From positions 4,285,001 to 4,349,000 of the forward strand of contig NZ_JAUSVK010000001.1 in NCBI RefSeq assembly GCF_030814655.1: a DNA stretch of 64,000 nucleotides, written 5' to 3'. How positions within the stretch are numbered: position 1 is the first letter of the stretch; each line of letters starts with the position of its first letter. The notes beneath the pieces are model-generated. The model saw nothing but the letters and a program-made list of their open reading frames with translations. It searched no databases and had not been told where the DNA came from. Below, piece after piece: positions 12,943-30,522 of this stretch. The stretch is from Labrys monachus (GTDB lineage: Bacteria > Pseudomonadota > Alphaproteobacteria > Rhizobiales > Labraceae). Position numbers and translations under genes: made by a program.

Positions 12943-13070
12943 TAGATGACCTCCAAGACAGTTATTATCTGATCAAAAGCGCCGCTCGGTGCTTCGACCG
13001 TTTCGCGAGACCCCGGCCCCAACCAGTGGTTGCTTCCCGGATACGACCCATCGGATGAATCGATGATTGG

Positions 13071-13099
13071 ACATTGCTGCACGCGCCCTGCTTGTACAA
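13071..13099 (-). promoter_or_regulatory. Promoter candidate of porin 3
   Basis: Minus strand TTGTAC, 17-nt spacer, CAATGT, in the same position relative to the start codon as in porin 2. The flanking bases TGCAGCA are also shared with porin 2. Confidence 0.4.
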
Positions 13100-13558
13100 T
13101 AGCGATTGTGCCCTACAACCGGAGCACGCAGCATTTTGGCCATGATGTGTAGCAAAAAAGACACAGAGGCACTTGCGAGGCTTTTTGGCGTGGAACAGGG
13201 CAAAATCGGGGATTTTAGTCCTGAATTGTGCCGATTGGCGGCAGATAGATGAAGGCCGGCGGCGAGGCTGGGGCTGCCGCGACGGGAGATCGGCAGCGCA
13301 ATCATGGCCAGATCTTGCCCTTCGGATGTCAGTAGAGGCATCGGCCGCAAGGCCGTCGTGCCGTATCTGGCACGCCGCCGCCGGGAGGACATGGGCTCGC
13401 CGGCGGCCGAATGAGAATCCCTCGCGCGACTCGCCGGCCGGGCGAATCCGGCGGCGGCCGCGACATTCCCCCAAGAATCAGGAGGAGCCGGATCCGCGAT
13501 GGCGGGCCGGGTCTCCGCGATTCGCACGGAGGCGAACCGCCCGGCGAATCGCGCTCAC

Positions 13559-13588
13559 AAAAAAAGGCCCGGCGCGAGCCGGGCCTTT
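13559..13588 (-). terminator. Rho-independent terminator of porin 4
   Basis: Minus strand: AAA, the stem GGCCCGGC/GCCGGGCC with a 4-nt loop, then TTTTTTT. It lies 20 bp after the porin 4 stop codon. Confidence 0.9.
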
Positions 13589-13608
13589 CGAAGTTCGGGC
13601 AGGATGGA

Positions 13609-14919
13609 TCAGAAGGTGCGCTTCACGCGAAGGCCGGCGACCAGGGAATTGGTCTTGTCCTTCACGAGTTCTGACGACGTCGAGCCGTCCGTCACGAAGA
13701 CCGGCGTGCCGTTGTGGGCATTGGTGCCGGCATAATAGACTTCGGCGCCGATCTGGAAGCCCTTGACGATCTCGTAGTTCAGCTGGCCGCCGACGACGTA
13801 GGAGGTGAAGTCCCCGTCCTGGCCCACGGCGACATCCGACGGCGCATTGTAGTGGCCGATGCTGCCGAAGAGCATCGCGGTGAGCTGGGGCGTGATATTG
13901 AAGCCGGCTTCACCGGTGACCGAGTAGCTCGTCGCCGTCTTGATACGGCCGCCGAGCGTGAAGTCGGCGTCGTAGGCGTTGGGCGCACCGGCCGGCGAGA
14001 ACTGGTTCGCGGCGACGCCGGTGAACGAGCTGGCACCGTCGGCATAGTTCGCTTCGAGGGCGATATAGGCACCCGGGACGACCGGGAGGTTGACCGAAAG
14101 GCCGGAACCGACCGCAAAGCCCCACTTCGAGCTGCTGTGCGTGCCTTCGAGATCGCCGAGGACGTCGATCTGGTGCAGGGCACCCATCACCTGGAACTTG
14201 CCCCAGGAGGCATCGTAGAGGACGTTGGCGATGATGTTCGGCGTCTTGGCGCCGGCATTCGTCAGCTGGCCGCCCTCGGTGTTCACGCCGTTACGCTCGC
14301 CGGCCGGATCTTCGACCGACAGCGTGGCGCTGAAGCCGCCGCCGAACTGGGCGGTGTAGGCGAGCAGCTGCTTGGTGCCGACCATGCCCGAGCCCATATA
14401 GGGCGCGAAGAAGGTATCGCCGTAATAGTTGTCATAGAAGGCGTAGAAGGATTCGGCGTAACCGGCCGTCAGGCCGCCGAACTGGATGTAGGCCTTGTCG
14501 ATATAGACATAGGAACCACCGATGGGATGGCCGATCTGCCAGTTCTGCGCCCCGGAGTTGCCGGTTGCGGCGTCGATGAGCAGGAAGGAACGCAGCAGGC
14601 CGTAATCGGTCTGGGTGCGCACGTCGAAGCCGAGCTGGGTCCGCCCCTGGAAGGAGGATTGGGACGTAGCACGGCTCGAGGTTCCGGCGGCCCGGTTATG
14701 GCTGTCGGCGGTGTTGAAGGTGTAGTCGGCGCGAATGTTGCCGCTGATCTTCAGGCAGCTATCGGTGCCGGGGATATAGAAGAAGCCGGGCCCGAACTCC
14801 GAGCAGACCTTCACATACTCGACAGGCTCAGCCTTCGTCATGGGCAGATCGGCGGCCTGGGCAGCGCCGATAACGGCGATACCGGCGGCGGCGCCGAGAA
14901 GAAGAGACTTCATCGTCAT
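13609..14919 (-). CDS. Porin (Porin_2 family), paralog 4
   Basis: 436 aa, outer-membrane beta-barrel. The signal peptide MTMKSLLLGAAAGIAVIGAAQA starts at the ATG at 14919 with GGAGGTCAT directly upstream; the open frame runs to 15048 but that part is the untranslated leader. Mature start is ADLPMTKAEPVEYVKVC and the C-terminus is RVKRTF. It differs from paralogs 2 and 3 mainly in short loop-like segments (for example NTADSHNRAAGTSSRA after the first strands). It shares leader, ribosome site and terminator type with paralogs 2 and 3. Confidence 0.93.
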   Translation of the reverse strand: MTMKSLLLGAAAGIAVIGAAQAADLPMTKAEPVEYVKVCSEFGPGFFYIPGTDSCLKISGNIRADYTFNTADSHNRAAGTSSRATSQSSFQGRTQLGFDVRTQTDYGLLRSFLLIDAATGNSGAQNWQIGHPIGGSYVYIDKAYIQFGGLTAGYAESFYAFYDNYYGDTFFAPYMGSGMVGTKQLLAYTAQFGGGFSATLSVEDPAGERNGVNTEGGQLTNAGAKTPNIIANVLYDASWGKFQVMGALHQIDVLGDLEGTHSSSKWGFAVGSGLSVNLPVVPGAYIALEANYADGASSFTGVAANQFSPAGAPNAYDADFTLGGRIKTATSYSVTGEAGFNITPQLTAMLFGSIGHYNAPSDVAVGQDGDFTSYVVGGQLNYEIVKGFQIGAEVYYAGTNAHNGTPVFVTDGSTSSELVKDKTNSLVAGLRVKRTF

Positions 14920-15482
14920 TGATGACCTCCAAGACATCTTACTTTGATCGAAAGCAGCGGCTGCTTCGACCGGGTCGCGAGACCCCGGCCTCAACCTCAG
15001 ATCGGCTTCCGGTTTACGACCCATCGGATGGAATCGATGGATCGACACTGCTCCACCCCCCCCTCACTCCACAATGCAAAATTAGCGCTTCCTCATGTAT
15101 TCGAGTCTCTTTGCGGCAGATGTGTCACTCAAAAGACACAACATAATCCGCCGTGAGCCTCAAAAGAAGCCACTTATACTACTATTGATTGCATAATTTA
15201 ACATTACAACCGTAGATTTTATTTTACAATCTAGCGTACATCTATTCTTACGTGTATCATTGACATTCACATGCGTAGATACATATGATAGATAACGATA
15301 AATACTATTGATTGAATTTTTTACACTGTGCAACCGATTGGAATCGTTCGGTGGCAACATTGCCACCGTCCCGAAATCGATGATGCCGGGCGAGCCGCTC
15401 AGCGGCAAAAGAAGGAAGTCGGAGGCCGAGACACCCGTGCTCCGTCACCGCGCCCTTTTCGCCGGCGCCGGACGCCGGCGGC
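14920..15482. other. Gene-free region upstream of porin 4 with AT-rich patch
   Basis: 563 bp. It contains the porin 4 leader (block at about 14970-15055), a weaker match to the promoter arrangement of its paralogs (CAGTGT at 15045-15050 with TTGTGG 18 nt upstream), a TGTGTC...GACACA palindrome at 15121-15138, and then an AT-rich patch. No gene is supported; short open frames here have no protein-like character. Confidence 0.55.
15160..15345. other. AT-rich island with 11-bp direct repeats
   Basis: Roughly 70% A+T in a genome segment that is otherwise about 65% G+C. ACTATTGATTG occurs at 15181-15191 and again at 15304-15314. It may be a regulatory region bound by a nucleoid protein, or the remnant of a small insertion; neither is shown. 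Confidence 0.45.
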
Positions 15483-16370
15483 TCAGCGTCGAGGCTGCAG
15501 CCGTTGCGCCGCCGTCTTCACCCGTTGCTCGTTGACGGCGATGTAGTCGGCCAGATCCTCGGCCGGCGGCGCGGCGAATGCATCCTGGGCGTAGCCCCAC
15601 AGGAGGTCGCGGAGCGCGGCGGCGAGGCGCATCGCAGCGAAGGCCTCGCGCTCGCCGGCGTCCGGGCCGTGGCCGAGCCACTGGGCCAGGGCCTCGCCGG
15701 CGTGCTCCTCGGAAAGCAGGGCGTTGTTCGCCAGGCTGGCGATGTCGGCCATCGGCTGTCCCTGCCCGGCATATTCCCAGTCGACCAGCCAGAGCCGATG
15801 GCCGTCGTCGATCAGGTTGCCGCCGTGAATGTCGTTGTGAGCGAAGCCGGGGGGAATGGCGGCAAGGCCGGCCGCGAGCCTGGTCAGGAGCGGCCGGCAG
15901 GCCTCGACCGCGCCGCGCCAGCGATTGGGCCGCTCCGAGAGCATGCGCCGATAGCGGTCCAGGAGCACGAGCGGACGGCGGTCGAGCACGGGCCCGCGAT
16001 AGAGGCGCGGCATCGCCGTTCCCGCCAGCCTCAGCAGCGCCACGGTCCGCCGGAGCGTCGCGGCCTCCGCAAGATCCGTCGCCGCCAGCGTGCGGCCCTC
16101 GACATGGCGCAGGACCATGAGATCGGCCTCGGCCCAGACGAGTTCCGGGCCGAGGCCGGCTTCGGCGGCGGCACGCGTCGCGGCCTGCTCGGCGCGGCGG
16201 TCGATGCCATGGATGGCGTTGTCGCCCGCGGCCCGCGCGACGAAACGGCCCTGCCCCGACCGGACCAGGACGTTACGGTTGGTCAGCCCGCCGGGCAGCG
16301 GCTCGATCTCGAGGGGGCCGGACCAGAGCGGCAGCGCGGCGAGACGGGTGGTGAGGTCGGGAAGCGGCAT
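15483..16370 (-). CDS. Choline/ethanolamine kinase-like phosphotransferase (APH family)
   Basis: 295 aa. The protein-kinase-like fold is shown by PLPGGLTNRNVLV (nucleotide loop), the catalytic-loop motif HNDIHGGNLID in which Asp is the likely base, and LVDWEYAGQGQPMADIA with the metal-binding Asp. The family includes choline, ethanolamine and thiamine kinases and aminoglycoside phosphotransferases. Placement as the last gene of a run with alcohol and aldehyde dehydrogenases, a glutamine synthetase homolog and a permease suggests an amino alcohol or related small hydroxylated molecule as substrate; this is inference. 72 bp separate it from the dehydrogenase gene. Confidence 0.8.
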   Translation of the reverse strand: MPLPDLTTRLAALPLWSGPLEIEPLPGGLTNRNVLVRSGQGRFVARAAGDNAIHGIDRRAEQAATRAAAEAGLGPELVWAEADLMVLRHVEGRTLAATDLAEAATLRRTVALLRLAGTAMPRLYRGPVLDRRPLVLLDRYRRMLSERPNRWRGAVEACRPLLTRLAAGLAAIPPGFAHNDIHGGNLIDDGHRLWLVDWEYAGQGQPMADIASLANNALLSEEHAGEALAQWLGHGPDAGEREAFAAMRLAAALRDLLWGYAQDAFAAPPAEDLADYIAVNEQRVKTAAQRLQPRR

Positions 16371-16380
16371 GGCTGGGTCG

Positions 16381-16429
16381 CGCGGTCGGCCGATGGAAGG
16401 AAGGCCCCCGGCCGCCCTCGCCGACCGCG
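16381..16429. repeat. Intercistronic inverted repeat (10-bp arms)
   Basis: CGCGGTCGGC at 16381-16390 pairs perfectly with 16420-16429, in the gap between the Fe-dependent dehydrogenase and the kinase-like gene. No T-run follows on the minus strand, so it looks like an mRNA-stability or processing hairpin rather than a terminator. Confidence 0.6.
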
Positions 16430-16442
16430 GACCGTCGCTCTC

Positions 16443-17609
16443 CTACAGCGCGCCTTCGAGCGCCTTGCGGTAGAGCTTCAGGGCGCCGGCCTTGGTGAGC
16501 GCAACCGGATTGCCGCCGGCGGTCGGATCCTTCGGCGCCATCTTCGACATCAGATCGAACTTGCCGTCGTCGACCTTGAGACCCGCGAGCGTGTTCGGCA
16601 CGCCGAGTTCCTCGCGCAAGGCGAGCGTCCAGTCGAGGAAGGCCGAATAGCGCGGCTTCAGACCGATATAGGCGGCCAGCCGCTCGATCTTCTCCTTCAC
16701 GGCCTTCTTGTTGAAGGCGATGACATAGGGCATGAAAACCGCGTTGGTCAGGCCGTGATGGGTGTCGTAGAGCGCACCCACCGGATGGGACAAAGCATGG
16801 ATGGCGCCGAGGCCCTTCTGGAACGCGGTGGCGCCGATCGCAGCGGCCGACATCATATGCGCGCGCGCTTCGATGTCCGTGCCGTCGGCATAGGCCCGCG
16901 GCAGATATTCCTTGACCAGCCGGACGCCTTCCACCGCCATGCCTTCGGCCATGGGATGATAGGAAGGCGCGCAATAGGCCTCCAGGCAATGGGCGAGAGC
17001 ATCGAGCCCGGTGCCGGCGGTGATGTGCTTGGGCATGCCGACGGTGAGCTCGGGATCGCAGATCGTCACCTTCGGCATCATCAGCGGGTGGAAGATCACC
17101 TTCTTGGTGTGGGTCTTCTCCTGCGTGATCACGCCGGCGCGACCGACCTCGGATCCCGTTCCGGCCGTCGTCGGGACGGCGATGATCGGCACGATGCCCT
17201 TCGGGTCGGCCCTCGTCCACCAGTCGCCGATATCTTCGAAATCCCACATCGGCCGCTTCTGGCCGGCCATGAAGGCGATGACCTTGCCGGCATCCAGCGC
17301 GGAGCCGCCGCCGAACGCCACCACGCCGTCATGGCCGCCCCGGCGCAGCACTTCGAGGCCCGCATAGACGTTCGACTCGACGGGGTTCGGCTTCACCTCG
17401 GAGAAGATCGCCGCGTGCAGCCCCGCCTCCTTCAGGCTCTCGAACGCCGCCTTCGTCATCGGCTGGGTGGCGAGGAACGGATCGGTCACCAGCAGCGGGG
17501 CCGTGATGCCGGCGCTCCTGCAGGCTTCCGCCAGTTCGGAAATGCGGCCCGCGCCGAAACGAATGGCGGTGGGGTAGTTCCAGTTGGCGCGCGGTGAGGT
17601 CGAAGTCAT
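16443..17609 (-). CDS. Iron-containing alcohol dehydrogenase
   Basis: 388 aa, group III Fe-dependent dehydrogenase. VVAFGGGSALDAGKVIAF is the NAD(P)-binding GGGS motif; the metal ligands are seen in order as Asp and His in TGLDALAHCLEAY, then His in HALSHPVGA and His in YDTHHGLTNAV. VPTTAGTGSEV is also typical. The start is the ATG at 17609. It should interconvert an alcohol and aldehyde in the cytoplasm. Between the aldehyde dehydrogenase and kinase-like genes, it probably oxidises the hydroxyl group of an amino-alcohol adduct; the substrate is inferred. Confidence 0.9.
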   Translation of the reverse strand: MTSTSPRANWNYPTAIRFGAGRISELAEACRSAGITAPLLVTDPFLATQPMTKAAFESLKEAGLHAAIFSEVKPNPVESNVYAGLEVLRRGGHDGVVAFGGGSALDAGKVIAFMAGQKRPMWDFEDIGDWWTRADPKGIVPIIAVPTTAGTGSEVGRAGVITQEKTHTKKVIFHPLMMPKVTICDPELTVGMPKHITAGTGLDALAHCLEAYCAPSYHPMAEGMAVEGVRLVKEYLPRAYADGTDIEARAHMMSAAAIGATAFQKGLGAIHALSHPVGALYDTHHGLTNAVFMPYVIAFNKKAVKEKIERLAAYIGLKPRYSAFLDWTLALREELGVPNTLAGLKVDDGKFDLMSKMAPKDPTAGGNPVALTKAGALKLYRKALEGAL

Positions 17610-17644
17610 GAGGGGTTCCGTTGGAGCGATGGAAAAGACGGTAT

Positions 17645-17681
17645 CGCCTGGGACGACCGGCCGGACCGGCCGTCCCAGGCG
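17645..17681. repeat. Intercistronic inverted repeat (11-bp arms)
   Basis: CGCCTGGGACG at 17645-17655 pairs perfectly with 17671-17681, between the aldehyde and alcohol dehydrogenase genes. On the minus strand it is followed some bases later by TCTTTTCC, so partial termination is possible. Confidence 0.6.
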
Positions 17682-17688
17682 GTGATGC

Positions 17689-19074
17689 TCAGATCGTGCG
17701 CAGATGGTAGCTCTTGGGCTGCGTGAGCGCCTCATAGCCGAGGCGCGACAGGCCCGCGCCGCGCCCGGTGTCCTTCACGCCGGTCCAGGTCAGACCCGGA
17801 TCGAGGTAGTCGCAGCGATTCATGAAGACGGTGCCGGTCTCGATCTCGCCGCCGATCCGCTCGGCCGCGTCGAGATCCTGGGTCCAGATCGCGGCAGTCA
17901 GGCCATAGGGCGAATCGTTCATCAGGCGGACGGCATCCTCGTCGGACCGCACCTTCATGATGCCGACCACGGGACCGAAGCTCTCCTCCATCATCACCGA
18001 CATCGAATGGTCGACATTGGTGAGGACCTGCGGGGCGAGATAGGCGGTCTTCCCGGTATCGGCAGGATATTTGGCGACGTCGATATGGGCGGTCGCCCCC
18101 TTGGCGACGGCCTCGCCGGTCTGCTTGCGCACCCAATTGGCGAAACGCACATTGGCCATCGGGCCGAGCGTCGTCGCCTCGTCGAGCGGATTGCCGAGCA
18201 CATATTGGCTGGTGAGGCTCACGAAGCCGTCGACGAAACGGTCGTAATGGTTCTCGTGCACATAGATGCGCTCGATGCCGCAACAGCACTGGCCCGAATT
18301 GTAGAAGGCGCCGTCGACGAGGTTCTCGATCGCGTGGTCGATATCGGCGTCGGCGCGGACATAGGCCGGGTCCTTGCCGCCGAGTTCGAGCCCGAGCGAC
18401 ATGAAGGTGCCGGCCGCGGCCTGCTCGATCGCACGGCCGCCGGCGACGGAGCCGGTGAAATTGGTGTGGTCGACGAGGCCCCGGAACAGCAGGCTGCTGG
18501 TCTGCTCATGGGTGAGGACGAGGTTCTGGAACACGCCCTTCGGCACGCCGGCCGCATCCATCGCCTTCTGGAAGCGCTCACCGACCAGGATGGTCTGCGC
18601 CGCATGCTTGAGGATCACCGCATTGCCGGCGATGAGGGCCGGCGCCACGGTGTTGACGGCGGTCATGAAGGGATAGTTCCACGGCGCGATCACGAAGACG
18701 ATGCCGAGGGGCTCGCGCTTGATCATGCGCTTGAAGCCGGGCCGGTCGTCGTCGGGAACGGTCGGCGCGAGGCTGGCCTCGGCAATGCGCACCATGTAGC
18801 GGACGCGCTCCTCGAAGCCGCGGAATTCGCCGCCATAACGCACCGGCCGGCCCATCTGCTGGGCGAGTTCGGGCACCACTTCCTGGTTGCTGGCGAGCAT
18901 CGCCTCGAGGAATTTGAGCACATAGGCGCTGCGCTCCGCGATCGGGAGCCTGCGCCATTCCTTCTGGGCCGCACGGGCCGCCGCGATGGCGCCGTCGATC
19001 TCCTGGGCGCTGGCGGCAGGGCGGCGCACCAGTTCCTTGCCGTCGATCGGAGAAATGCAGATGATATCCGACAT
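17689..19074 (-). CDS. NAD(P)-dependent aldehyde dehydrogenase
   Basis: 461 aa from the ATG at 19074. The Rossmann part has APWNYPFMTAVNTVAPALIAGNAVILKHA; the catalytic glutamate lies in LELGGKDPAYV and the nucleophilic cysteine in NSGQCCCGIERIYV (about residue 265). EESFGPVVGIM is also conserved. It oxidises an aldehyde to the acid. It is 79 bp upstream of the alcohol dehydrogenase on the same strand, so the two probably act in sequence on one carbon. Gamma-glutamyl aldehydes are the substrate class suggested by the glutamine synthetase homolog upstream. Confidence 0.92.
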   Translation of the reverse strand: MSDIICISPIDGKELVRRPAASAQEIDGAIAAARAAQKEWRRLPIAERSAYVLKFLEAMLASNQEVVPELAQQMGRPVRYGGEFRGFEERVRYMVRIAEASLAPTVPDDDRPGFKRMIKREPLGIVFVIAPWNYPFMTAVNTVAPALIAGNAVILKHAAQTILVGERFQKAMDAAGVPKGVFQNLVLTHEQTSSLLFRGLVDHTNFTGSVAGGRAIEQAAAGTFMSLGLELGGKDPAYVRADADIDHAIENLVDGAFYNSGQCCCGIERIYVHENHYDRFVDGFVSLTSQYVLGNPLDEATTLGPMANVRFANWVRKQTGEAVAKGATAHIDVAKYPADTGKTAYLAPQVLTNVDHSMSVMMEESFGPVVGIMKVRSDEDAVRLMNDSPYGLTAAIWTQDLDAAERIGGEIETGTVFMNRCDYLDPGLTWTGVKDTGRGAGLSRLGYEALTQPKSYHLRTI

Positions 19075-19576
19075 GATGGTCTCTTGTTGAGAGCACCGGC
19101 GCCACCGCACCGGAACTTCGGTGAAAGGAAGGCGGATCGCTGCGTGGACACTGCGTCGCGACAGGCGCAGGCTCGCGGCCGTTCCGAAATCGACGTCGTC
19201 TCACGGCCCGGGATCGACAAAGCACCACGCCGTGCCCCGATCGATCCAGGTCCGCCCTCTGGATGATGCCGTCGTTCTACAGCATCTCGCCCGATTTTCG
19301 AACCGGATCCGATGCTGCATCTCCGGTAATCGCATCATGTCCGCCGAAACCGTCTCTGCTTCCGGCGCGATGCGTAATGCGTTCTACCTCCAGATCGACT
19401 CATCAAGAATCGCAAAATTCTCTTGGCACCAATCGCCAAATTGATGATCCGCTCTGGCTTGAACGCATCTTGCTCCGGTGCGTTCTACCTCCAGACCGAA
19501 TCACCGGGAACCGCAAAATTCTCTTGGCACCAATGCGCTAAACTGGTGTGCCGCTCCGGCTCGAACGCCTTTTGCT
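19075..19576. other. 502-bp gap carrying a duplicated element
   Basis: No gene is seen. The left part (19075-19300) is plain GC-rich sequence; the right part is a tandem duplication listed separately. The gap splits the catabolic gene run, so the aldehyde dehydrogenase may have its own promoter, or transcription reads through. Confidence 0.6.
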
Positions 19577-19577
19577 C
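19378..19577. repeat. Direct repeat, two copies of about 99 bp
   Basis: Copy 1 spans 19378-19475 and copy 2 spans 19479-19577, offset 101-102 bp. Both begin TGCGTTCTACCTCCAGA and end with TGCTC; a 23-bp core is identical at 19410-19432 and 19512-19534, and the right third (CGCTCTGGCTTGAACGC / CGCTCCGGCTCGAACGC) is similar. Copy 2 ends on the stop codon of the glutamine synthetase homolog. It resembles a dispersed intergenic repeat of the kind common in Hyphomicrobiales. Confidence 0.75.
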
Positions 19578-20950
19578 TAGATGATCTCGAAATAGCGCTC
19601 CAGCTGCCAGTCGGAAATGGATCGGCGGAATTCCCGCTCCTCCCATTCCCGCGTGGCGGCGTAATGGTCGACGAAGGCGTCGCCGAACAGCGCGCGGGCC
19701 GCCTCGGACGCCTTCAGGCGATGGGCCGCCTCCATCAGGCTGCGGGGCAATTGGCGCTCCCTCGGGAATTGCCTGTCATAGGCCGATCCCTCGACCGGCG
19801 CATCCGGCTCGATCCTGTTCTCGATGCCCCAAAGGCCCGAACCGATGGCCGCCGCCAAGGCGATGTAGGGATTGATGTCGGCCGCCGCCACCCGATATTC
19901 GACGCGCTGCGACTTTTCCGAGCCGGGGATGACGCGCAGCGCGCAGGTCCGGTTCTCGACGCCCCAGCTCGCATCCGTCGGCGCCCAGAAGCCGGGAATG
20001 AGGCGCGTATAGGAATTCACCGTGCAGGCGATCATCGCCAGCAATTCGGGCATCAGCGCCTGCTGGCCGCCGACATACCAGCGCATCTCGTCCGACATCG
20101 CATGCGGCTTGTCCTTGTCGTAGAACACGCCCCGGCCGGTTTCCAGGCTGGTCAGCGAGGTATGCAGATGCCCGGACTGGCCCGGCCAGTCATGCGACCA
20201 CTTGGCCATGAAGGTCGCCATCCAGCCCCGCTTCTGCGCGAGGATCTTGGTGAAGGTCTTGAACAGCGCCGCCTTGTCGGCCATCGCCAGCGCCTCGTCG
20301 ACGCGCAGCGCCGCCTCGAGCACGCCCGGCCCCGTCTCGGTGTGAAGGCCCTCGATCTCCATATCCATGGCGCGGCAGGTGTCGAGCAGTTCCCGATAGA
20401 AATCGGCATGCACGCCGGCGCGCAGCATGGAATAGCCGAAGAAGCCCGGCGTGATGCTCTTCAGGTTGCGGTAGCGCTTCTCACGCACCGAATGCGGGGT
20501 TTCGTCGAAGAGGAAGAACTCGAACTCGGCCGCCGCCGCGACGGCGTAGCCCATGTCGGCGGCGCGGGCGAGCACCCGCCTGAGGGTACCGCGCGGACAA
20601 TGCGCCTCGGCCTCGCCGGCGAATTCACCGATGAAGAGCGGGATGCCGCCCTCGAAAGGAATGGTGCGCATCGTCTCCGGGACGAAGCGCGTCTCGGCGT
20701 CGCGGTAGCCGTTATGCCAGCCGGCGAAGCTCGTATTGTCGTAGAGTTGGTCGTTCGAATCCCAGCCAAGGACGACGTTGCAGAAGCCGAAGCCCTTTTC
20801 CAGCGCGCTCTCGAACTTGTCGCGGGCCATGTATTTGCCGCGAAAAATGCCGTCGATGTCGAAAACGCCGACCTTGACGTCGGTGAAGCCGCCTTCACGG
20901 ACATAGGCGATCGCCTCGGCTGCATTCTTGGGTTTCGCGGAATTCGCCAT
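19577..20950 (-). CDS. Glutamine synthetase family protein, PuuA-like gamma-glutamylamide synthetase
   Basis: 457 aa from the ATG at 20950. The beta-grasp N-terminus (VKVGVFDIDGIFRGKYM) is followed by the catalytic domain with metal-binding glutamates in AAEFEFFLFDET and ETGPGVLEAAL, SGHLHTSLTSL, and the ATP/glutamate loop NSYTRLIPGFWAPTDASWGVENR. Length and motifs fit the PuuA/GlnA3/GlnA4 group, which joins glutamate to an amine other than ammonia, more than housekeeping GlnA. With alcohol and aldehyde dehydrogenases, permease and amidohydrolase around it, it probably glutamylates an amino alcohol or polyamine before oxidation. The exact amine is not shown by the sequence. Confidence 0.88.
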   Translation of the reverse strand: MANSAKPKNAAEAIAYVREGGFTDVKVGVFDIDGIFRGKYMARDKFESALEKGFGFCNVVLGWDSNDQLYDNTSFAGWHNGYRDAETRFVPETMRTIPFEGGIPLFIGEFAGEAEAHCPRGTLRRVLARAADMGYAVAAAAEFEFFLFDETPHSVREKRYRNLKSITPGFFGYSMLRAGVHADFYRELLDTCRAMDMEIEGLHTETGPGVLEAALRVDEALAMADKAALFKTFTKILAQKRGWMATFMAKWSHDWPGQSGHLHTSLTSLETGRGVFYDKDKPHAMSDEMRWYVGGQQALMPELLAMIACTVNSYTRLIPGFWAPTDASWGVENRTCALRVIPGSEKSQRVEYRVAAADINPYIALAAAIGSGLWGIENRIEPDAPVEGSAYDRQFPRERQLPRSLMEAAHRLKASEAARALFGDAFVDHYAATREWEEREFRRSISDWQLERYFEII

Positions 20951-20987
20951 ATTTCGTCTGCTCCGGCTCCGGATGAATTCGATGGAG

Positions 20988-21022
20988 GCGGCCGGCCCCT
21001 GGTGAGGAAAGGGGCCGGCCGC
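20988..21022. repeat. Intercistronic inverted repeat (12-bp arms)
   Basis: GCGGCCGGCCCC at 20988-20999 pairs perfectly with 21011-21022, in the gap between the permease and the glutamine synthetase homolog. No T-run follows in the direction of transcription. Confidence 0.65.
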
Positions 21023-21030
21023 GTTTGTCG

Positions 21031-22620
21031 TCAGGCCGTCTCGCCCACGGCCTTCTCGGCCTGGGCGATCTCGGCCGCCCGGCGGGCGATGTCCGCGCCG
21101 ATTGGCGGGCCCTTGAAGCGGCGGGATTCGACGCCGAACCACAGCACGAGGAGAAGGATGACGAGGCCGATCGCGTAGTTGATCAGGATGTCGAAGGGCG
21201 GCTGGATGCCCGCATACATCAGGACCAGCACGCCCAGCACGGTGATCACCGCGAAGGGTTTCGACCAGATGCCGAGGCGGAAGGGACCGAACTCCGTCCA
21301 CGACTTGCCTTCGGCGAACAGGCCCGCCGCGATCGGCATGGCATAGGAGACATAGAGGAAGAGGGCACAGCCCGCCGCCAGCGCCGCGAAGGCCGGCGAA
21401 TACAGCGTCGCCGCCACCGAGAGCACCGCCCCGAGCCAGATCGCCGCCACCGGCGTGCGCCAGGTCGGGCTGACGCCCCGCCACAGCGAGGATCCCGGCA
21501 GGCCGCCGTCACGGGCGAAGGCGAAGATCATGCGCGAGGTCGAGGTCAGCCCCGCCAGGGCGCAGATGAAGTTGGCGACGACGATGCCGATGGCAAGCAG
21601 GTCCTTCAGGATCAGCGGCGCCGGCAGGTTGGTGAACAGGTTGAACCAGGCAGCTCCGCCATCCTTGGCCGTGGCAGCGAGATCCGGGCTCGCCAGGACG
21701 AAGGACACGGCCATGGCGAAACCGAATATCAGCGACCAGAGCACGGCGTGGATCATGCCGCGCGGCACCGCCACGCGGGCATTCTGCGTTTCCTCGGAGG
21801 TGTGGGCGGAGGCATCGAAGCCGGTGATGGTGTAGAGGGGATAGAGCAGGCCCACCAGGAAGGCGATCAGCGCGGGCCTCGGGGCCGGCACATAGCCGCC
21901 GCCGGCGTCGCCCGTGTTGTTGACGAAGGTGAACAGCCGCGAAAAGTCCCAGCCCGCTCCCCAGAACAGGAAGGTCAGGGTCAGCACGACCGCGACGACA
22001 AGGATGAGGTAGCCGGAGAAATCCGTCAGCAGCGTGGTGAGCTTGATGCCGAAATGGTTGATCAGGGCCTGCGCGAGCGTGATCACGCAGACGGCGACGA
22101 CCTGCGCGACATAAGCCGAGTTGTTGATGGCAGCCGCCTGCTCGGCGGTCATGCCGGCCGGCAGAGGATCGGACACCGCCGTCCAGGCCGTCACGTCGAC
22201 GTGGAACACGCCGGCGAGGACAAGGTCACGGAAGAGCAGCCAGACGCCGACATTCACCGAGGCGACGACGAAGATCAGGCCGAGCAGATTGATCCAGGCC
22301 GTCGCCCAGCCCCAGCCGCGGCCGCCCAGGATCGAGGACCAGTGGTAGAGGCCGCCGGCCGTCGGATAGGCGGAACCGATCTGGCCGAGCGAGGCGGCGA
22401 CGATCAGCGCAAAGAAGCCGCCTACCAGCCAGCCGATGGTCGCCTCGAAGCCACTGCCAGTGGCCATGGCGAGCGGGAAGGAGGTGATGCCCCCGGCGAG
22501 AATGCAGATGATGGAGAAGGAGATGGCGAAATTAGAGAATCCGCCCATGCGGCGCGCCAACTCCTGCGCGTAGCCCATGGAATGGAGGACCTTTACGTCC
22601 TCGTCCGTCGACCCAGTCAT
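21031..22620 (-). CDS. APC-family amino acid/polyamine/amine permease
   Basis: 529 aa with about 12 hydrophobic segments. The first membrane region GGFSNFAISFSIICILAGGITSFPLAMATG is typical of the amino acid-polyamine-organocation superfamily. Conserved features include ITGFDASAHTSEET in the middle and FAFARDGGLPGSSLWRGVSP. It should import an amine or amino acid across the inner membrane. It lies between the amidohydrolase and the glutamine synthetase homolog, so it probably brings in the amine used by that pathway; 80 bp with a hairpin separate it from the synthetase gene. Confidence 0.9.
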   Translation of the reverse strand: MTGSTDEDVKVLHSMGYAQELARRMGGFSNFAISFSIICILAGGITSFPLAMATGSGFEATIGWLVGGFFALIVAASLGQIGSAYPTAGGLYHWSSILGGRGWGWATAWINLLGLIFVVASVNVGVWLLFRDLVLAGVFHVDVTAWTAVSDPLPAGMTAEQAAAINNSAYVAQVVAVCVITLAQALINHFGIKLTTLLTDFSGYLILVVAVVLTLTFLFWGAGWDFSRLFTFVNNTGDAGGGYVPAPRPALIAFLVGLLYPLYTITGFDASAHTSEETQNARVAVPRGMIHAVLWSLIFGFAMAVSFVLASPDLAATAKDGGAAWFNLFTNLPAPLILKDLLAIGIVVANFICALAGLTSTSRMIFAFARDGGLPGSSLWRGVSPTWRTPVAAIWLGAVLSVAATLYSPAFAALAAGCALFLYVSYAMPIAAGLFAEGKSWTEFGPFRLGIWSKPFAVITVLGVLVLMYAGIQPPFDILINYAIGLVILLLVLWFGVESRRFKGPPIGADIARRAAEIAQAEKAVGETA

Positions 22621-22699
22621 TGTTAAGTCCCCCGACTTATGGTCTTGCGACCGGTGAAGTCCGTATCTGGCGTTCAGAACCGCTTTCTTGTTCGAGCGG

Positions 22700-23527
22700 T
22701 CATAGGCCGGCGCCGGCCCGCCGCGCCAGTGTATTTCCGGCCGGCGGTGCCGCTATGCTCTTGAGAATGCAAGCAAGTTTCATGCCCCAAATTGCCTCCT
22801 GCTGCTCCGTCGACAGGAGGTCGTTGCGAATCTCGATCATGACGCTCGACAGCCCCCGGCTCTGGCCGTGGCGATCGAGCGTATGATAGACGCGATCCCC
22901 GGGACTGTAGGGCTCGTTTGCCCCGACGGTCAGCGTCTCGTCCCGCCGCAAGGCCGCCAGCATCGGCGCGGACAGGCTCTCGTCATGGTCGAACAATACG
23001 CCGATATGCCACGGCCGCAACGCCCCGCGATAGACCGGCGTGAAACTGTGGACGCCGATCACCGCGACCGGGCCCGATACCCTCTTGGCCTCGACGGCCG
23101 CGGCGATACAGGCATGGAAGGGCTCGTATACCTCGCCGACGCGCCTCTGCCGCTCCGCTTCGTCGAGCCCCGCATTGCCGGGAATGTCGGTGTCTTCGCT
23201 GCGCAGCGGAATCGCGTCGAACATCGCGGGGTCTCGGTTGCAGTCGATCACCAGCCGGCTGACGCGGCAGGAGACCAGCGGCGCATCCAGTTCGCGGGCC
23301 AGCACCCTGGCGACGCCGAGGGCACCGGGGTCCCAGGCGATGTGGCGGGTCAGGTCCGCCGCTGTGAGACCGAGGTCCCCCAGGCGCCCGGGAATCACAT
23401 TGGAAGCGTGTTCGCAGACGATCACATAGCGTCCGGCGCCATCGGCATTCTCGACCAGCGCCGCGCCGTTCCCCACCGCCCAGCTCGCTTCAGGCCCCGA
23501 AGATCCGCTCGGGTTCGCTTCTAACAT
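22700..23527 (-). CDS. N-formylglutamate amidohydrolase family hydrolase
   Basis: 275 aa. The family zinc site and substrate residues are visible in VIVCEHASNVIP, DLTRHIAWDPGALGVARVL, SRLVIDCNRDP and VIGVHSFTPVYRG. Named members hydrolyse N-formylglutamate in histidine breakdown, but no hut gene is nearby. Here it opens a run with a glutamine synthetase homolog and dehydrogenases, so it may instead release glutamate from a gamma-glutamyl product, the step done by PuuD in the putrescine pathway. That role is inference. It is the first gene of the minus-strand run and is divergent from the RpiR regulator. Confidence 0.87.
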   Translation of the reverse strand: MLEANPSGSSGPEASWAVGNGAALVENADGAGRYVIVCEHASNVIPGRLGDLGLTAADLTRHIAWDPGALGVARVLARELDAPLVSCRVSRLVIDCNRDPAMFDAIPLRSEDTDIPGNAGLDEAERQRRVGEVYEPFHACIAAAVEAKRVSGPVAVIGVHSFTPVYRGALRPWHIGVLFDHDESLSAPMLAALRRDETLTVGANEPYSPGDRVYHTLDRHGQSRGLSSVMIEIRNDLLSTEQQEAIWGMKLACILKSIAAPPAGNTLARRAGAGL

Positions 23528-23594
23528 TCATTACGTCCGACTGGCATTTCATCTACATTGTTAGTCTGAGTACAGAGGCGGGCCGCTTGTCAAT

Positions 23595-23618
23595 CGCGAA
23601 ATTGGCATTTGTTTCGCG
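23595..23618. promoter_or_regulatory. Inverted repeat CGCGAAA-N10-TTTCGCG (operator candidate)
   Basis: Perfect 7-bp arms in the 178-bp divergent region between the amidohydrolase (-) and the RpiR regulator (+). A further GGCATTT occurs at 23543-23549 and inside this repeat at 23604-23610. It is a good candidate site for the adjacent RpiR protein. Confidence 0.45.
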
Positions 23619-23705
23619 TTCCGTGCTTTATTTGAGATCAGGATCGCGGCGGTCGAAGGCGTTCGCGCCTCGCCAGGGACGATCGAAGAAAGGGAGGGCC
23701 TCCGC

Positions 23706-24575
23706 GTGGCAGCTATCGAAGACCTCGCGGGCACGGCCGGCGACAAGACGCTCGCGACGCTCATCCGGGGGCGCCTCGGAAACCTCACGCCGACCGAGCG
23801 GCGAGCCGCCCACGTCCTCCTGTCGAACTATCCCTTCGCCGGGCTGGAGACGGTCGCGCAATTCGCCGCGCGTGCCGGGGTCTCCGCCCCGTCGGTCCTG
23901 CGCTTCGTCGCCCGGCTCGGCTTCGGCGCCTATGCCGACTTCCAGCGTCACCTGAAGGAGGAACTCGAGGCGCAGCTGCAGTCGCCGCTGATGAAGCAGG
24001 CGCCGGACCCGGCGACCGCGACCCCGCTCTCCGCCTTCGCCGCGTCGGCCGCCGCCAATGTCACGCAGACCTTCGCGGCGGTGGCGCCGGCCGAGTTCGA
24101 CGCTATCCTCGCTTTGCTGACCGATCCCAAGCGCAGGCTCCATATCGTCGGCGGACGTCTCAGCGAGGCGATCGCGCTCTACATGGCGCGGCACCTGCGC
24201 GTCATCCGGCCCGAGGTGGCGCTGGTCGAGGGGCAGGTCGAGACGTGGCGCGACCAGGTCATCGACTTCGGCAAGCGCGATGTCCTCATCGTCTTCGACA
24301 TCAGGCGCTACCAGGACGACGTCGTCCAGCTCGCCCGGGAGGCGGCCGAACGCGGCGCCACCATCGTCCTCTTCACCGACCAGTGGCTTTCACCCGTCGC
24401 GCGCATCGCCCGCCACGTCATCGCCGCCCGCACCGGCATCCCCTCGAACTGGGATTCGAACGTCGCCATCCTCGCCGTCGTCGAAGCCCTGATCGCCGCT
24501 GCGACGAAGGCCCTGTGGGATCTGGCGAAAGCGCGCATGCAGGCGCTGGAGCTGCTGCGCAAGTCGACGCGATGA
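23706..24575 (+). CDS. MurR/RpiR-family transcriptional regulator
   Basis: 289 aa from a GTG at 23706 with GGAGGG about 8 nt upstream. The N-terminal helix-turn-helix domain (LTPTERRAAHVLLSNYPF ... GVSAPSVLRFVARLGFGAYADFQ, residues about 25-80) is followed by a SIS sugar-isomerase-like effector domain (RRLHIVGGRLSEAIALYMARHL ... RDVLIVFDIRRYQDDV ... GATIVLFTD). RpiR members sense phosphorylated sugars or other small ligands. Divergent placement next to the amidohydrolase gene makes it the likely local regulator of the 15483-23527 gene run. It is convergent with the next ABC operon. Confidence 0.9.
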   Translation: MAAIEDLAGTAGDKTLATLIRGRLGNLTPTERRAAHVLLSNYPFAGLETVAQFAARAGVSAPSVLRFVARLGFGAYADFQRHLKEELEAQLQSPLMKQAPDPATATPLSAFAASAAANVTQTFAAVAPAEFDAILALLTDPKRRLHIVGGRLSEAIALYMARHLRVIRPEVALVEGQVETWRDQVIDFGKRDVLIVFDIRRYQDDVVQLAREAAERGATIVLFTDQWLSPVARIARHVIAARTGIPSNWDSNVAILAVVEALIAAATKALWDLAKARMQALELLRKSTR

Positions 24576-24638: not shown

Positions 24639-25673
24639 CTACCGCCTCCTGCCGAAGCTCAGATAAGGCCGGATCGTCTGCACCGCCATCACCGCGATCA
24701 GCACAAGGCCCCAGATGGCCGCCGTGAGATAGGGACTGAGGCCGAGCTGGTTGAAGCCGGAGGAGATCACCTGGAGGATGGCCAAGGCGATCATCAGGCC
24801 GGAAACCTTGCCGAAGCCGCCGAAGGGATCGACGCCGCCGAGCACCGCCGCCAGGATCGTCACCAGGAGATAGGACTGCCCATAGTCGGCGCTGGCCGAG
24901 TTGAAGAGCGCGAGCGAGACCAGCGCCGCCACGAAGCACATCACGCTCGACAGCGTGTAGACGCCGACCAGCACCCGCCTTGTGTCGATGGCGGAAAAGC
25001 GGGTGGCTTCGATGTTCGAGCCGATCATGGCGCAGGAGATGCCGAAGGGCGTCTTCCGCAGCACGAGTCCGAGGAGATAAGCCGCGCCGGCGAGCACGAG
25101 GAAACTGACGGGTATGCCGAGGACGAGGGCCGTGCCGGCCCTCGCGAAGATGTCGGGAATGCCGGATTGGGCCTGGCCGCGCGTCAGATAGATGCTGATG
25201 CCGTCGATCAGCGATTTCGTTCCGAGCGTGACGAGGATCGGATGGACGCCGGTATAGGCGATCAGGGCGCCGGTGACGAGGCCGATGGCCACGCAGAGCA
25301 ACAAGCCGGCCAGCAGGGCCAGCAGGATGACGCCCAGCAGGGTGGCATTGCCCGCCTCCGGCGTCAGCAGCGTACGCATGACGAACACCATCAGCATGGC
25401 GCACTGGTTGGTGGTGGCGATGATCGCGAGGTTGAGGCCGCCGGTGATCAGCGGCACCACCATGGCGAGCGACAGCAGGCCCAGCAGCGGCAGCTGGAGC
25501 ATGAAGCTCTGCAGCGTGGCACCGCTGGCGAAGCCGGGGATCGAGACCGAAAAGCCGGCGACGAGCACCACGAGCAGCGCCAGCAATCCCGGCGAGCCGC
25601 CCGGTGCGCCGCTGCGCAGGCGGGTCATCAGGGCATTCAGGCCCGCATCGGCGGGCGAAGCGGATTCAGCCAC
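24639..25673 (-). CDS. Ribose-type ABC transporter permease
   Basis: 344 aa, about 8-10 membrane segments, RbsC/BPD_transp_2 family. Typical segments: SLAMVVPLITGGLNLAIIATTNQCAM (early conserved region) and AAVLGGVDPFGGFGKVSGLMIALAILQVISSGFNQLG near the C-terminus. It forms the inner-membrane channel of a sugar importer together with the next permease, with which it overlaps by 8 bp (stop of one at 25666, start of this at 25673). It is the last gene of the operon. Confidence 0.93.
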   Translation of the reverse strand: MAESASPADAGLNALMTRLRSGAPGGSPGLLALLVVLVAGFSVSIPGFASGATLQSFMLQLPLLGLLSLAMVVPLITGGLNLAIIATTNQCAMLMVFVMRTLLTPEAGNATLLGVILLALLAGLLLCVAIGLVTGALIAYTGVHPILVTLGTKSLIDGISIYLTRGQAQSGIPDIFARAGTALVLGIPVSFLVLAGAAYLLGLVLRKTPFGISCAMIGSNIEATRFSAIDTRRVLVGVYTLSSVMCFVAALVSLALFNSASADYGQSYLLVTILAAVLGGVDPFGGFGKVSGLMIALAILQVISSGFNQLGLSPYLTAAIWGLVLIAVMAVQTIRPYLSFGRRR

Positions 25674-26739
25674 GGGCGGTCTCCTGTCTTGGCGCGAGCG
25701 GCGTCTTCGATGCCTCCCGCGAGGTGTCGGCCGATCCGGGCGGCTGGCTCGGATTGCGATGCCGCCGCCGCTGGCGTGCGCTCATGACCGTGATCGAGGT
25801 CGAGATCAGGATGGTGAGGCCGATGACGATCTGGAAGAAGTAGGAGGAGACGCCGAGCAGGTTGAGGCCGTTCTGCAGCATCGCCAGGAGCACGATGCCG
25901 AGCAGCACGCCCGGCACCGTGCCGATGCCGCCGGTGAGGCTCGCCCCGCCGAGCACCGCCGCCGACAGCACCGAAAGCTCGGTGTTGTACATGGCGTTCG
26001 GCACGCTTTCGCCGACCCGATGGGCCTGCAGCAGGCCGCCCACGGCGGCCATGAAGCCGAGGAACCCGTAGGCGACGAAGTGCAGCAGGCCGATATTGAC
26101 GCCGACGCGGCGGGCCGCCTCCGGATTGCCGCCCATGGCGTAGAGCTGCCGGCCGATCTTCGTGCGGGTCATGAACAGCCAGGTCAGCAAGGCGGCGGCG
26201 AACATCATGACGATCGGCAGGGTGATGCGGGTGAGGTCGCCGTCGGCGTTCTCGGTCTGCCAGAAGACGATGCGGTCGGTCCACCAGTCGGGCAGGTTGT
26301 AGAGCGACCTGCCGCCCGAAAAATACATCAGCAGCGAGAAGGTGACGCTCATCATCGCGATGGTGGCGATGATCGAGGTGATGCGGACGAAGTGGATCAG
26401 CGCCGCGTTGAGGCAGCCCAGCACGATGCCGATCAGCAGGCCCGCCCCGATGGCGACGATGCCGGGCATGCCGGCCTGGGTGGCGAGGATGACGGCGACG
26501 TATTGCGCGACGGAGGCCGTGGCGGCGAAGGAGATGTCGATGCCGCCCGACACCAGCACCACGAACAGGCCCATGGCCATGATGGACTGGACCGAATAGG
26601 TCTCGAGCAGGTCGACGAGATTGGCCAGCGTCAGGAAGCCGGGCGCCGCCGCGCTCAGGAGCGCGCCGGCAACGATGATGACGGCGAGGAGCCAGGCCTC
26701 GGGCCGGCGCTGCAGGCGCGCGAGGGAGCCGTTACGCAT
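25666..26739 (-). CDS. Ribose-type ABC transporter permease
   Basis: 357 aa from the ATG at 26739. Membrane segments include SIMAMGLFVVLVSGGIDISFAATASVAQY, the hallmark ISGGIDLS-like stretch of RbsC relatives, and LSAAVLGGASLTGGIGTVPGVLLGIVLLAMLQNGLNLLGV. It pairs with the permease at 24639-25673 as a heterodimeric channel, as in LsrC/LsrD. Its first bases overlap the end of the ATPase gene by 8 bp, implying translational coupling. Confidence 0.93.
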   Translation of the reverse strand: MRNGSLARLQRRPEAWLLAVIIVAGALLSAAAPGFLTLANLVDLLETYSVQSIMAMGLFVVLVSGGIDISFAATASVAQYVAVILATQAGMPGIVAIGAGLLIGIVLGCLNAALIHFVRITSIIATIAMMSVTFSLLMYFSGGRSLYNLPDWWTDRIVFWQTENADGDLTRITLPIVMMFAAALLTWLFMTRTKIGRQLYAMGGNPEAARRVGVNIGLLHFVAYGFLGFMAAVGGLLQAHRVGESVPNAMYNTELSVLSAAVLGGASLTGGIGTVPGVLLGIVLLAMLQNGLNLLGVSSYFFQIVIGLTILISTSITVMSARQRRRHRNPSQPPGSADTSREASKTPLAPRQETARG

Positions 26740-28225
26740 AGATCCGCTCCTCGAGCTGGTGTTCGGTGATCCTGCCGGGGATCGCTTCCTCGACGATGCG
26801 GCCCCCGCGCATGTGCAGCACACGGTCGCAGGTGGCGAAGATTTCCAGCACCTCGTCGGAAATCACGATCACGCCGACGCCCTGGCCGGCGAGTTCGGCC
26901 ACGACGTCGTAGATGCCCTTCTTGTTCTTGATGTCGACGCCGACGGTGGGGCTGTCGAGGATGAGCACCTTGGGATGCGCCGCGAGCCATTTGGCGAGGA
27001 CCACGCGTTGCTGGTTGCCGCCGGACAAGGTCTGCACCGGCTTGTCGAAGCCGCCGATCTTGATCGCGAGACGCTCGACCCATTCCTTGGCCAGGGCGCG
27101 GCGCCGGTGGGCGGGAATGAGGCCGAGGCCGCCGCGAAGGTCCTTCAGGACGGCCAGGATGATGTTGTCCTCGATCGACTGCTTCAGGATGACGCCGAGA
27201 CCGAGCCGGTCCTCGGAGACATAGGCGATGCCGGCGTCGACCGCGTCGCGGTTGGTGCGCAGCTTCAGCTGCCTTCCCTCCAGCGCGATCGTACCGCTTT
27301 CGGGTTGCGTCATGCCGAACAGGCTGAGGGCGAGCTCCGTCCGGCCGGCCCCGAGCAGGCCGGTGATGCCGAGCACCTCGCCACGGCGAAGCGTGAAGGA
27401 CACGTCCGCATATTCGCCCTCGCGCGTCAGATTCCGCACTTCCAGCAGCGGCGGCGCGGCATCCATGTCGCGCGCCACGACCTCATGGGCGATGTCGAGC
27501 CCGGTCATGAGGTTGGCGATGCGGCGCTGGTCGACCTCGCCGACCGGCCAGGTGCCGACCTTCCTGCCGTCGCGCATGACGGTGACGCGCTCGGCGATCT
27601 CGACCACTTCGTCGAGCCGATGGGAAACGAACACGACCGCGATGCCGTCGGCCTTGAGCCGCGCCACGATGGCGAGCAGCCGGTTGACCTCGCTGCGGGT
27701 CAGGGAGGAGGTCGGTTCGTCCATGAAGATGAGCCTGGCATCCGCGGCCAGGCCCCGGCAGATGGCGACGATCTGCCGTTCGGCGACCGGCAATTCCCCG
27801 ACATTGGCACCGGGATCGAGGACGAAGTCGAGGCGCTTCAGCACGCGCTCCGCGAGGGCGCGCATCGCCGCATAGGAGACCGGCGTGGCCAGGTTCTCCA
27901 GATGGCTCTCGATGGCGATGTTCTCGGCGACGGTGAGATTCGGGAACAGCGAAAGATCCTGGAAGATCACCTGGATGCCGAGCTTGCGCGCCCGGCCGGG
28001 CGTGAGCGGCAGGACCGGCTCGCCGTCGATCTCGATCGTGCCGGCGGTCGGCGCGTGCACGCCGGCGACCGACTTGATCAGGGTCGACTTGCCGCAGCCG
28101 TTCTCCCCGACCAGGCAATGCACTTCCCCGGGACGGACGTCCCAGTCGATGCCTTGCAGGGCCTGAACGCCGCCGAAGCGCTTGGTGATGCCGGTAAGGC
28201 GAAGAAACGGCACGGGATCCGTCAT
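26732..28225 (-). CDS. Ribose-type ABC transporter ATPase (two NBDs)
   Basis: 497 aa, RbsA/LsrA-type duplicated ATPase. NBD1 has Walker A GENGCGKST (about residue 39), signature region LPVAERQIVAICRGLA and Walker B LIFMDEPTSSL. NBD2 has the degenerate Walker A GLLGAGRTEL usual for this family, LSGGNQQRVVLAKWLA and Walker B VLILDSPTVGVD, where Ser replaces the usual catalytic Glu. That change leaves NBD2 probably unable to hydrolyse ATP on its own. It energises import by the two permeases downstream and lies 60 bp after the binding-protein gene. Confidence 0.94.
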   Translation of the reverse strand: MTDPVPFLRLTGITKRFGGVQALQGIDWDVRPGEVHCLVGENGCGKSTLIKSVAGVHAPTAGTIEIDGEPVLPLTPGRARKLGIQVIFQDLSLFPNLTVAENIAIESHLENLATPVSYAAMRALAERVLKRLDFVLDPGANVGELPVAERQIVAICRGLAADARLIFMDEPTSSLTRSEVNRLLAIVARLKADGIAVVFVSHRLDEVVEIAERVTVMRDGRKVGTWPVGEVDQRRIANLMTGLDIAHEVVARDMDAAPPLLEVRNLTREGEYADVSFTLRRGEVLGITGLLGAGRTELALSLFGMTQPESGTIALEGRQLKLRTNRDAVDAGIAYVSEDRLGLGVILKQSIEDNIILAVLKDLRGGLGLIPAHRRRALAKEWVERLAIKIGGFDKPVQTLSGGNQQRVVLAKWLAAHPKVLILDSPTVGVDIKNKKGIYDVVAELAGQGVGVIVISDEVLEIFATCDRVLHMRGGRIVEEAIPGRITEHQLEERIYA

Positions 28226-28285
28226 GGGCGATATCCAAAGCGTCCGAAAACCCCTTCTCCCGCCATCGGGAGAAGGGGAACTGCA

Positions 28286-29293: not shown

Positions 29294-29323
29294 GGTTTCC
29301 TCCTTTTTTGCTTGGTCTTGAAT

Positions 29324-30346: not shown

Positions 30347-30381
30347 GTTTATCCCTCCCGAGGCCCGTCGTCCTCATTCCC

Positions 30382-30395
30382 ATAAAACGTTTTAT
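30382..30395. promoter_or_regulatory. LacI-type operator, palindrome ATAAAACGTTTTAT
   Basis: A perfect 14-bp palindrome with the central CG typical of LacI/GalR operators. It lies 36 bp before the lacI-type gene and 128 bp before the epimerase gene, well placed to control both. Confidence 0.7.
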
Positions 30396-30522
30396 TGGAT
30401 GCTAGACATTCCCAGGAACTGTGTCAATTATGCGCCGCGCCGATATGGAGGGCGGGATCTTTTCGCATTGCAATATCTTTACTTCGCAGGCGCAACAAAT
30501 CAACGAGGTGTTGGAGGAATCA

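Follow-up and report, generated by a model that had tools for sequence, protein, structure and literature searches.

A probable ethanolamine gamma-glutamylation operon with a variant glutamine synthetase homolog in Labrys monachus

Which compound would be degraded by the products of seven adjoining genes in Labrys monachus, and how does this set relate to pathways already described? The genes lie at positions 15483 to 24575 of a stretch of 64,000 nucleotides (contig NZ_JAUSVK010000001.1, positions 4,285,001 to 4,349,000), which we call the window. We consider it very probable that they form an operon for the breakdown of ethanolamine by gamma-glutamylation, most likely following the same kind of pathway as the eto operon but with a variant glutamine synthetase (GS) homolog, which we call class B to set it apart from the GS of the canonical ethanolamine operons (class A). 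The initial annotation had proposed an amino-alcohol logic, in which the substrate is glutamylated, its hydroxyl group oxidised to the aldehyde and the acid, and the amide hydrolysed. This stays the best reading, as the same set has been published as an ethanolamine pathway; ethanolamine, which had been offered as an example, becomes the best candidate substrate in view of the pairing of class B GS with an EtoX-like solute-binding protein (SBP) elsewhere. That first reading missed that the GS belongs to a different subfamily, that a kinase has been added and that the pathway itself is already known. The cluster is ordinary in its pathway and unusual in its assembly.

That ethanolamine is the substrate, which reaction each enzyme catalyses and how the genes are regulated are conclusions that we infer from the comparison of sequences. 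In the mechanism that we propose, an APC-family permease would import ethanolamine, and the class B GS homolog would join it to the gamma-carboxyl group of glutamate, using ATP. An iron-containing alcohol dehydrogenase (Fe-ADH) and an aldehyde dehydrogenase (ALDH) would then oxidise the hydroxyl end, through gamma-glutamyl-aminoacetaldehyde to gamma-glutamylglycine, which an amidohydrolase of the N-formylglutamate amidohydrolase (FGase) family would split into glutamate and glycine. The RpiR-family regulator would govern transcription from the divergent promoter by way of a CTGTA-N8-TACAG-like site. The features are as follows:

15483-16370, minus strand: choline/ethanolamine-kinase-like phosphotransferase of the APH fold (PF01636 2.9e-16, PF01633 7.7e-09)
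16443-17609, minus strand: Fe-ADH, proposed gamma-glutamylethanolamide dehydrogenase (PF00465 8.8e-50)
17689-19074, minus strand: ALDH, proposed gamma-glutamyl-aminoacetaldehyde dehydrogenase (PF00171 5.6e-120)
19378-19534, no strand: direct-repeat stretch between GS and ALDH genes (two 56-nt copies)
19577-20950, minus strand: class B GS homolog, proposed ethanolamine gamma-glutamylase (PF00120, Gln-synt_C, 1.7e-96)
21031-22620, minus strand: APC-family permease, proposed ethanolamine importer (PF13520, AA_permease_2, 5e-47)
22700-23527, minus strand: FGase-family amidohydrolase, proposed gamma-glutamylglycine amidohydrolase (PF05013 1.2e-43)
23558-23575, no strand: operator-like inverted repeat (8/10 match to CTGTA-N8-TACAG)
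23588-23593, minus strand: TTGACA, -35-like hexamer of the operon promoter, read from the sequence
23706-24575, plus strand: divergent RpiR-family regulator (SIS PF01380 6.1e-24, HTH_6 PF01418 3.1e-10)

All seven genes that the initial annotation had listed are present, and the conserved-gene calls are Pfam matches, each above the curated cut-off. The starts of the GS, ALDH and Fe-ADH genes are internal ATG codons of longer open reading frames, and relatives align across the trimmed lengths. Genes of the minus-strand run are separated by 72-80 bp, except for the 502 bp between the GS and ALDH genes. The whole seven-gene block, including the kinase, was found in 4/4 other Labrys genomes examined (proteins 56-94% identical), and the GS, ALDH and Fe-ADH genes stay together in 68-69 of the 71 class B loci with enough flank; therefore the grouping is not a matter of chance. 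One collection of loci kept 80 of 126 confirmed ones. The locus counts refer to those class B loci that have 4 kb of sequence on either side (71) and to 24 class A loci, and omit L043 (no GS above 55%), L209, L094-L097 and the duplicates L137, L146 and L153; from the protein set, entries with a stop or with short matches were left out.

The combination of a GS homolog, an Fe-ADH (PF00465), an ALDH and an FGase-family hydrolase, found together in the window, has clear precedents. In Phaeobacter MED193 the operon comprises genes for an RpiR regulator, gamma-glutamylglycine amidohydrolase, the TRAP transporter EtoVWX, ethanolamine gamma-glutamylase, ALDH and a dehydrogenase; growth on phosphorylethanolamine raises EtoX and the four enzymes, and EtoX binds ethanolamine with a Kd of 7.9 uM (PMC10132767; for the Chromohalobacter and Agrobacterium operons this source refers to Vetting et al., 2015). 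In Streptomyces, GlnA4 is a gamma-glutamylethanolamide synthetase, the later steps being proposed (PMC6529630), and PF00120, PF00465, PF00171 and PF05013 are tabulated for an ethanolamine pathway in Table 2 of PMC9397018. Since the same gene families are already published as an ethanolamine gamma-glutamylation operon in these three sources, the pathway is not new. The operons of Phaeobacter, Chromohalobacter salexigens and Agrobacterium share with Labrys the regulator, the FGase-family hydrolase, a transporter, the GS homolog, ALDH and dehydrogenase as well as the gene order, whereas Labrys has an APC permease in place of EtoVWX with its ethanolamine-type SBP, a GS of another subfamily and the added kinase. 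In Streptomyces coelicolor, the GlnA4 cluster likewise unites a GS-like synthetase with a dehydrogenase, an ALDH, a hydrolase and a negative regulator, and in both cases the position of E327 of type I GS (GSI) has changed, to Phe in the GlnA4 model and to Trp in Labrys; this likeness is one of description. The figure legend for that cluster gives the dehydrogenase as a short-chain one and lists a glutamine amidotransferase, whereas the discussion calls the hydrolase formylglutamate-amidohydrolase-like (PMC6529630).

The Puu pathway of E. coli (PuuA-D) follows the same sequence of glutamylation, oxidation and hydrolysis, and some class B operons have, in place of the FGase, a class-I glutamine amidotransferase (GATase) like PuuD; the Puu pathway differs in using the oxidase PuuB where Labrys has an alcohol dehydrogenase, and its GS is 30% identical. 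The Ipu pathway of Pseudomonas sp. KIE171 reportedly gamma-glutamylates a monoamine. Nor is the ethanolamine ammonia-lyase route indicated here, as EutB (PF06751) of the EutBC route had no match in the Labrys genome, with a positive control in E. coli (1/14 genomes scanned).

What sets the Labrys cluster apart is, in the first place, its GS. The protein shares 33-36% identity with the GS of canonical operons and 30% with E. coli PuuA, so that of the earlier label "PuuA-like synthetase" the GS homology (PF00120) stands and the likeness to PuuA is loose. Proteins matched by the class A query L039 show 55-80% identity to it, except for two copies at 53% and 48%. Matches to PDB 5dm3 and 11zs reach 3.8e-167 and 6.6e-205 for the L039 GS, and 1.3e-60 and 2.9e-69 for that of the window; judged by these values class A is the type of both structures, the former of which we take to be the C. 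salexigens enzyme, and the window GS is not of this C. salexigens-like kind but belongs, on its identities, to a separate subfamily. That subfamily is named nowhere in the literature searched, from which subscription journals were mostly missing.

The two classes rarely meet. Among 297 genomes of the order, drawn from a larger group and with at most five candidates scored per genome, class B (at least 60% identity) occurs in 22 and class A (E of at most 1e-120) in 126, with both in a single genome, the Labrys genome G004. Class A is present in 1/22 class B genomes compared with 125/275 others (Fisher p 7e-5) and, by genus, in 1/10 class B genera compared with 66/112 others (Fisher p 0.005), both p values being optimistic because the genomes share ancestry. 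This near-exclusion suggests one shared job for the two classes.

In the GS alignment, from which we use no columns or identities of the six paralogs of the own genome, since three of them (L001, L002 and L003) seem to have been translated in a wrong frame, the GSI E327 position is Trp in 93/93 class B rows and Phe in 25/25 class A rows; PuuA has Tyr. The loss of Glu is an argument against ammonia being the substrate, and the window protein, with Trp there, lacks this mark of a true glutamine synthetase. E129, E131, E212, E220, H269, R321, R339, R344, E357 and R359 are kept in class B, and we take these alignment positions to have their GSI catalytic roles. E327, D50 and Y179 of GSI are discussed in PMC6529630. 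These data bear on the proposal that the genes form a polyamine (Puu-like) or glutamine-synthesis cluster with an N-formylglutamate-cleaving hydrolase. The NCBIfam models GGputSyn, GlnA and HutG (TIGR02017) do match, at 183.6 and 219.7 bits for the GS and 25.1 bits for the FGase, but far below their cut-offs of 650, 429.15 and 278.75 bits, so that the FGase fails the deformylase threshold; moreover, the run has no oxidase or transaminase, and E327 is lost. We regard this proposal as highly improbable.

The oxidising enzymes tell a different story from the GS. The window ALDH is 55-71% and the Fe-ADH 56-74% identical to those of class A operons from other families of the order. On the ALDH tree (83 rows) five changes of GS class are needed, at least three of them forced by starred branches, and on the Fe-ADH tree (78 rows) five are needed and two so forced; both are quick trees with several long branches, without most Microvirga rows and some duplicates, and share their phylogenetic history with the exclusivity counts. 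These repeated changes argue that the GS was probably exchanged more than once on a common ALDH and Fe-ADH chassis.

A second exchange concerns the hydrolase. The window FGase is 45-55% identical to the FGases of the six class A operons first compared, and in a tree made without most Microvirga rows and some duplicates it falls among operon FGases of both GS classes, although deep branches are weak. The 71 class B loci comprise 40 with FGase only, 17 with class-I GATase only, 2 with both and 12 with neither; after thinning to one Microvirga and one Labrys row (n=45) the corresponding figures are 14, 17, 2 and 12, with a Fisher p of 0.004 for avoidance. Among the 24 class A loci, 19 have an FGase, none a GATase and 5 neither. 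The two GATases scanned are PF00117/PF07722 proteins of the PuuD kind. That two unrelated hydrolases trade one slot supports the view that the FGase would be a gamma-glutamyl-amide hydrolase, and it lends substance to the earlier suggestion that it stands in for PuuD. Such an alternation is described nowhere in the literature searched, again with subscription journals mostly missing. Elsewhere in the same genome, which is a single contig of 6.92 Mb with 7 GS and 3 FGase homologs, a second FGase, an RpiR and a GS homolog are grouped (G000:C1:4640295-4643427; L033:7295-10427), with an M20 peptidase and a Peripla_BP_6 protein close by; they may form another gamma-glutamylation cluster for another substrate.

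With respect to the substrate, the strongest link of class B GS to ethanolamine comes from other species rather than from Labrys. In five Thalassospira loci (L159, L170, L172, L173 and L177) and on one short contig from a family of the window's order (L081), class B GS adjoins an EtoX-like TRAP SBP. The only PDB match of the L170 SBP at E of at most 1e-20 is 4uab/4xf5 (1.1e-168; 2.1e-156 for the class A SBP of L040), and 4UAB is described in the literature as Csal_0678 crystallised with bound ethanolamine. This association in six relatives points to ethanolamine in Labrys too. The Labrys permease matches TIGR00907 at 7e-64, yet stays below the model cut-off. A TRAP transporter would not be a strict requirement of the pathway, since the class A loci themselves have an SBP in 9 cases, an APC permease in 8 and neither in 7.

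The same comparison allows for a related idea, namely that the chemistry is unchanged while the class B GS and the permease serve another amino alcohol, such as alaninol, 3-aminopropanol or N-methylethanolamine, the oxidising enzymes and the hydrolase remaining as they are. The exchanged parts, GS and transporter, are precisely those that choose the amine, and the GS is just 33-34% identical to two class A GS rows; however, an ethanolamine-type SBP accompanies class B GS elsewhere, and the near-exclusion of the two classes suggests one job, which makes this idea, in our view, improbable.

Several observations nevertheless weigh against ethanolamine gamma-glutamylation in Labrys, in addition to the shared ancestry of the genomes and the quality of the trees mentioned above. 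The window permease is not EtoX: all five Labrys operons examined carry the APC permease, and no TRAP system is seen in them. With about 34% identity between the GS and its canonical counterpart, the amine could differ. The D50 column of the ammonium site is Asp in 93/93 class B rows and Pro in 22/25 class A rows, in a region where the alignment is poor, and an Asp there would argue that this site has not been lost. At N264, class B has Pro where class A and PuuA have Ala. Labrys G004 holds, besides its class B GS, a class A-like GS (L209; G004:C3:197166-198521) with 53% identity to class A, whose gene has no ALDH or Fe-ADH gene nearby. Finally, 12/71 class B and 5/24 class A loci have neither FGase nor GATase within reach, the former being L085, L087, L093, L127, L136, L150, L154, L155, L157, L163, L168 and L176; these class B loci may depend on a third hydrolase or on one encoded elsewhere in the genome. 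In the genome of L087 (G010), an FGase gene adjoins an RpiR gene on another contig (L047).

The regulatory region is shared across both classes. A divergent RpiR gene is present in the window, and RpiR homologs occur within 8 kb in 19/24 class A and 49/71 class B loci. The CTGTA-N8-TACAG site (at least 8/10 matches) was found in 23 of 29 thinned RpiR-FGase gaps, a set without most Microvirga rows and some duplicates, against a mean of 1.1 and a maximum of 4 in shuffled sequences; this evidence is post hoc, because the form was read by eye and then scored on the same sequences. What speaks for an operator-like site is the preference for a gap of 8, with 23 occurrences as compared with 1, 1, 0 and 6 at gaps of 6, 7, 9 and 10 (n=29). 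A TTGAC-N11-16-GTA element lies on the operon strand in 17/29 gaps (shuffled mean 0.28, maximum 3) and in 0 on the other strand. Both elements occur in class A and class B loci. An operator search by 8-mers and by exact 5-mer dyads yielded no clear candidate, the top 8-mer being found in 9/31 sequences (shuffled maximum 8) and the top dyad in 3.

The last peculiarity is the choline-kinase-like gene, whose product matches PDB 3dxq, a "choline/ethanolamine kinase family protein", at 1.4e-17. It stands beside the operon in 7/71 class B and 0/24 class A loci, in Labrys, in Prosthecomicrobium hirschii and two genomes of its genus group, and in Roseiarcus. The kinase gene is also intact in the two Labrys genomes whose copy showed a TGA, this codon being the gene end. 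Members of the family occur in 26/60 relatives including the own genome, where a second copy adjoins a DAO/GCV_T protein (L222:6932-10474); in G045, two copies are clustered with an OpuA-type (betaine-type) ABC transporter and a DAO/GCV_T protein (L223:2337-11755). Our guess is that the kinase is an accessory enzyme that would phosphorylate ethanolamine or a related amino alcohol.

A dual fate of the substrate would be compatible with the ethanolamine operon as proposed: the kinase would phosphorylate ethanolamine, choline or another amino alcohol, its product either serving lipid salvage or acting on the SIS domain of RpiR as a phosphorylated ligand; what is left would enter the GS branch. 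In line with this notion, the Prosthecomicrobium and Roseiarcus kinase homologs match Choline_kinase slightly better than APH (2/2 scanned), and family members adjoin the DAO/GCV_T protein in this genome and, in another genus, belong to the cluster with the betaine-type transporter. The window kinase, however, matches APH better than Choline_kinase, and the kinase is missing from most operons that have this kind of RpiR; hence we hold the dual fate, with either use of the product, to be rather unlikely. A bolder version, which we rate as quite improbable, would make class B a second amino-alcohol gamma-glutamylase, recruited independently and with a specificity of its own, so that the ethanolamine chassis would serve a different or wider range of amino alcohols in Labrys and its kin, with the kinase supplying a phosphorylated amino alcohol sensed by the SIS domain of RpiR.

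Other features of the locus lie outside this argument. The 502-bp gap between the GS and ALDH genes holds two 56-nt direct-repeat copies, 89% identical and 101 bp apart. Their core pattern occurs at four places in the genome with at most 3 mismatches, two in this gap and two as weaker copies, so that the reading of 19378-19534 as a dispersed repeat is weak. Two Porin_2 genes (11650-15048) lie immediately downstream of the cluster on the same strand. On the other side, 24639-31416 holds a sugar-type ABC transporter run, a LacI-type gene and an AP_endonuc_2 (xylose-isomerase-like) protein; the transporter run (24639-29293) was excluded from the system because its own LacI-type gene (29324-30346) adjoins it. 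Further on (31452-39016), a bacterial alpha-2-macroglobulin (1821 aa) adjoins a transglycosylase/transpeptidase with a BiPBP_C domain, a known pairing.

Ethanolamine from membrane lipids is a widespread source of carbon and nitrogen. While the pathway is known, what is new here is comparative: the swap of GS subfamilies, the SBP pairing, the alternation of hydrolases, the shared operator-like site and the added kinase. If our reading is true, this would be a catabolic pathway with a fixed ALDH and Fe-ADH core, in which glutamylase, hydrolase and importer are each exchangeable. It would also provide a context rule to name many GS homologs that would pass for glutamine synthetases without it, and would assign a function to one group of proteins in the FGase family.

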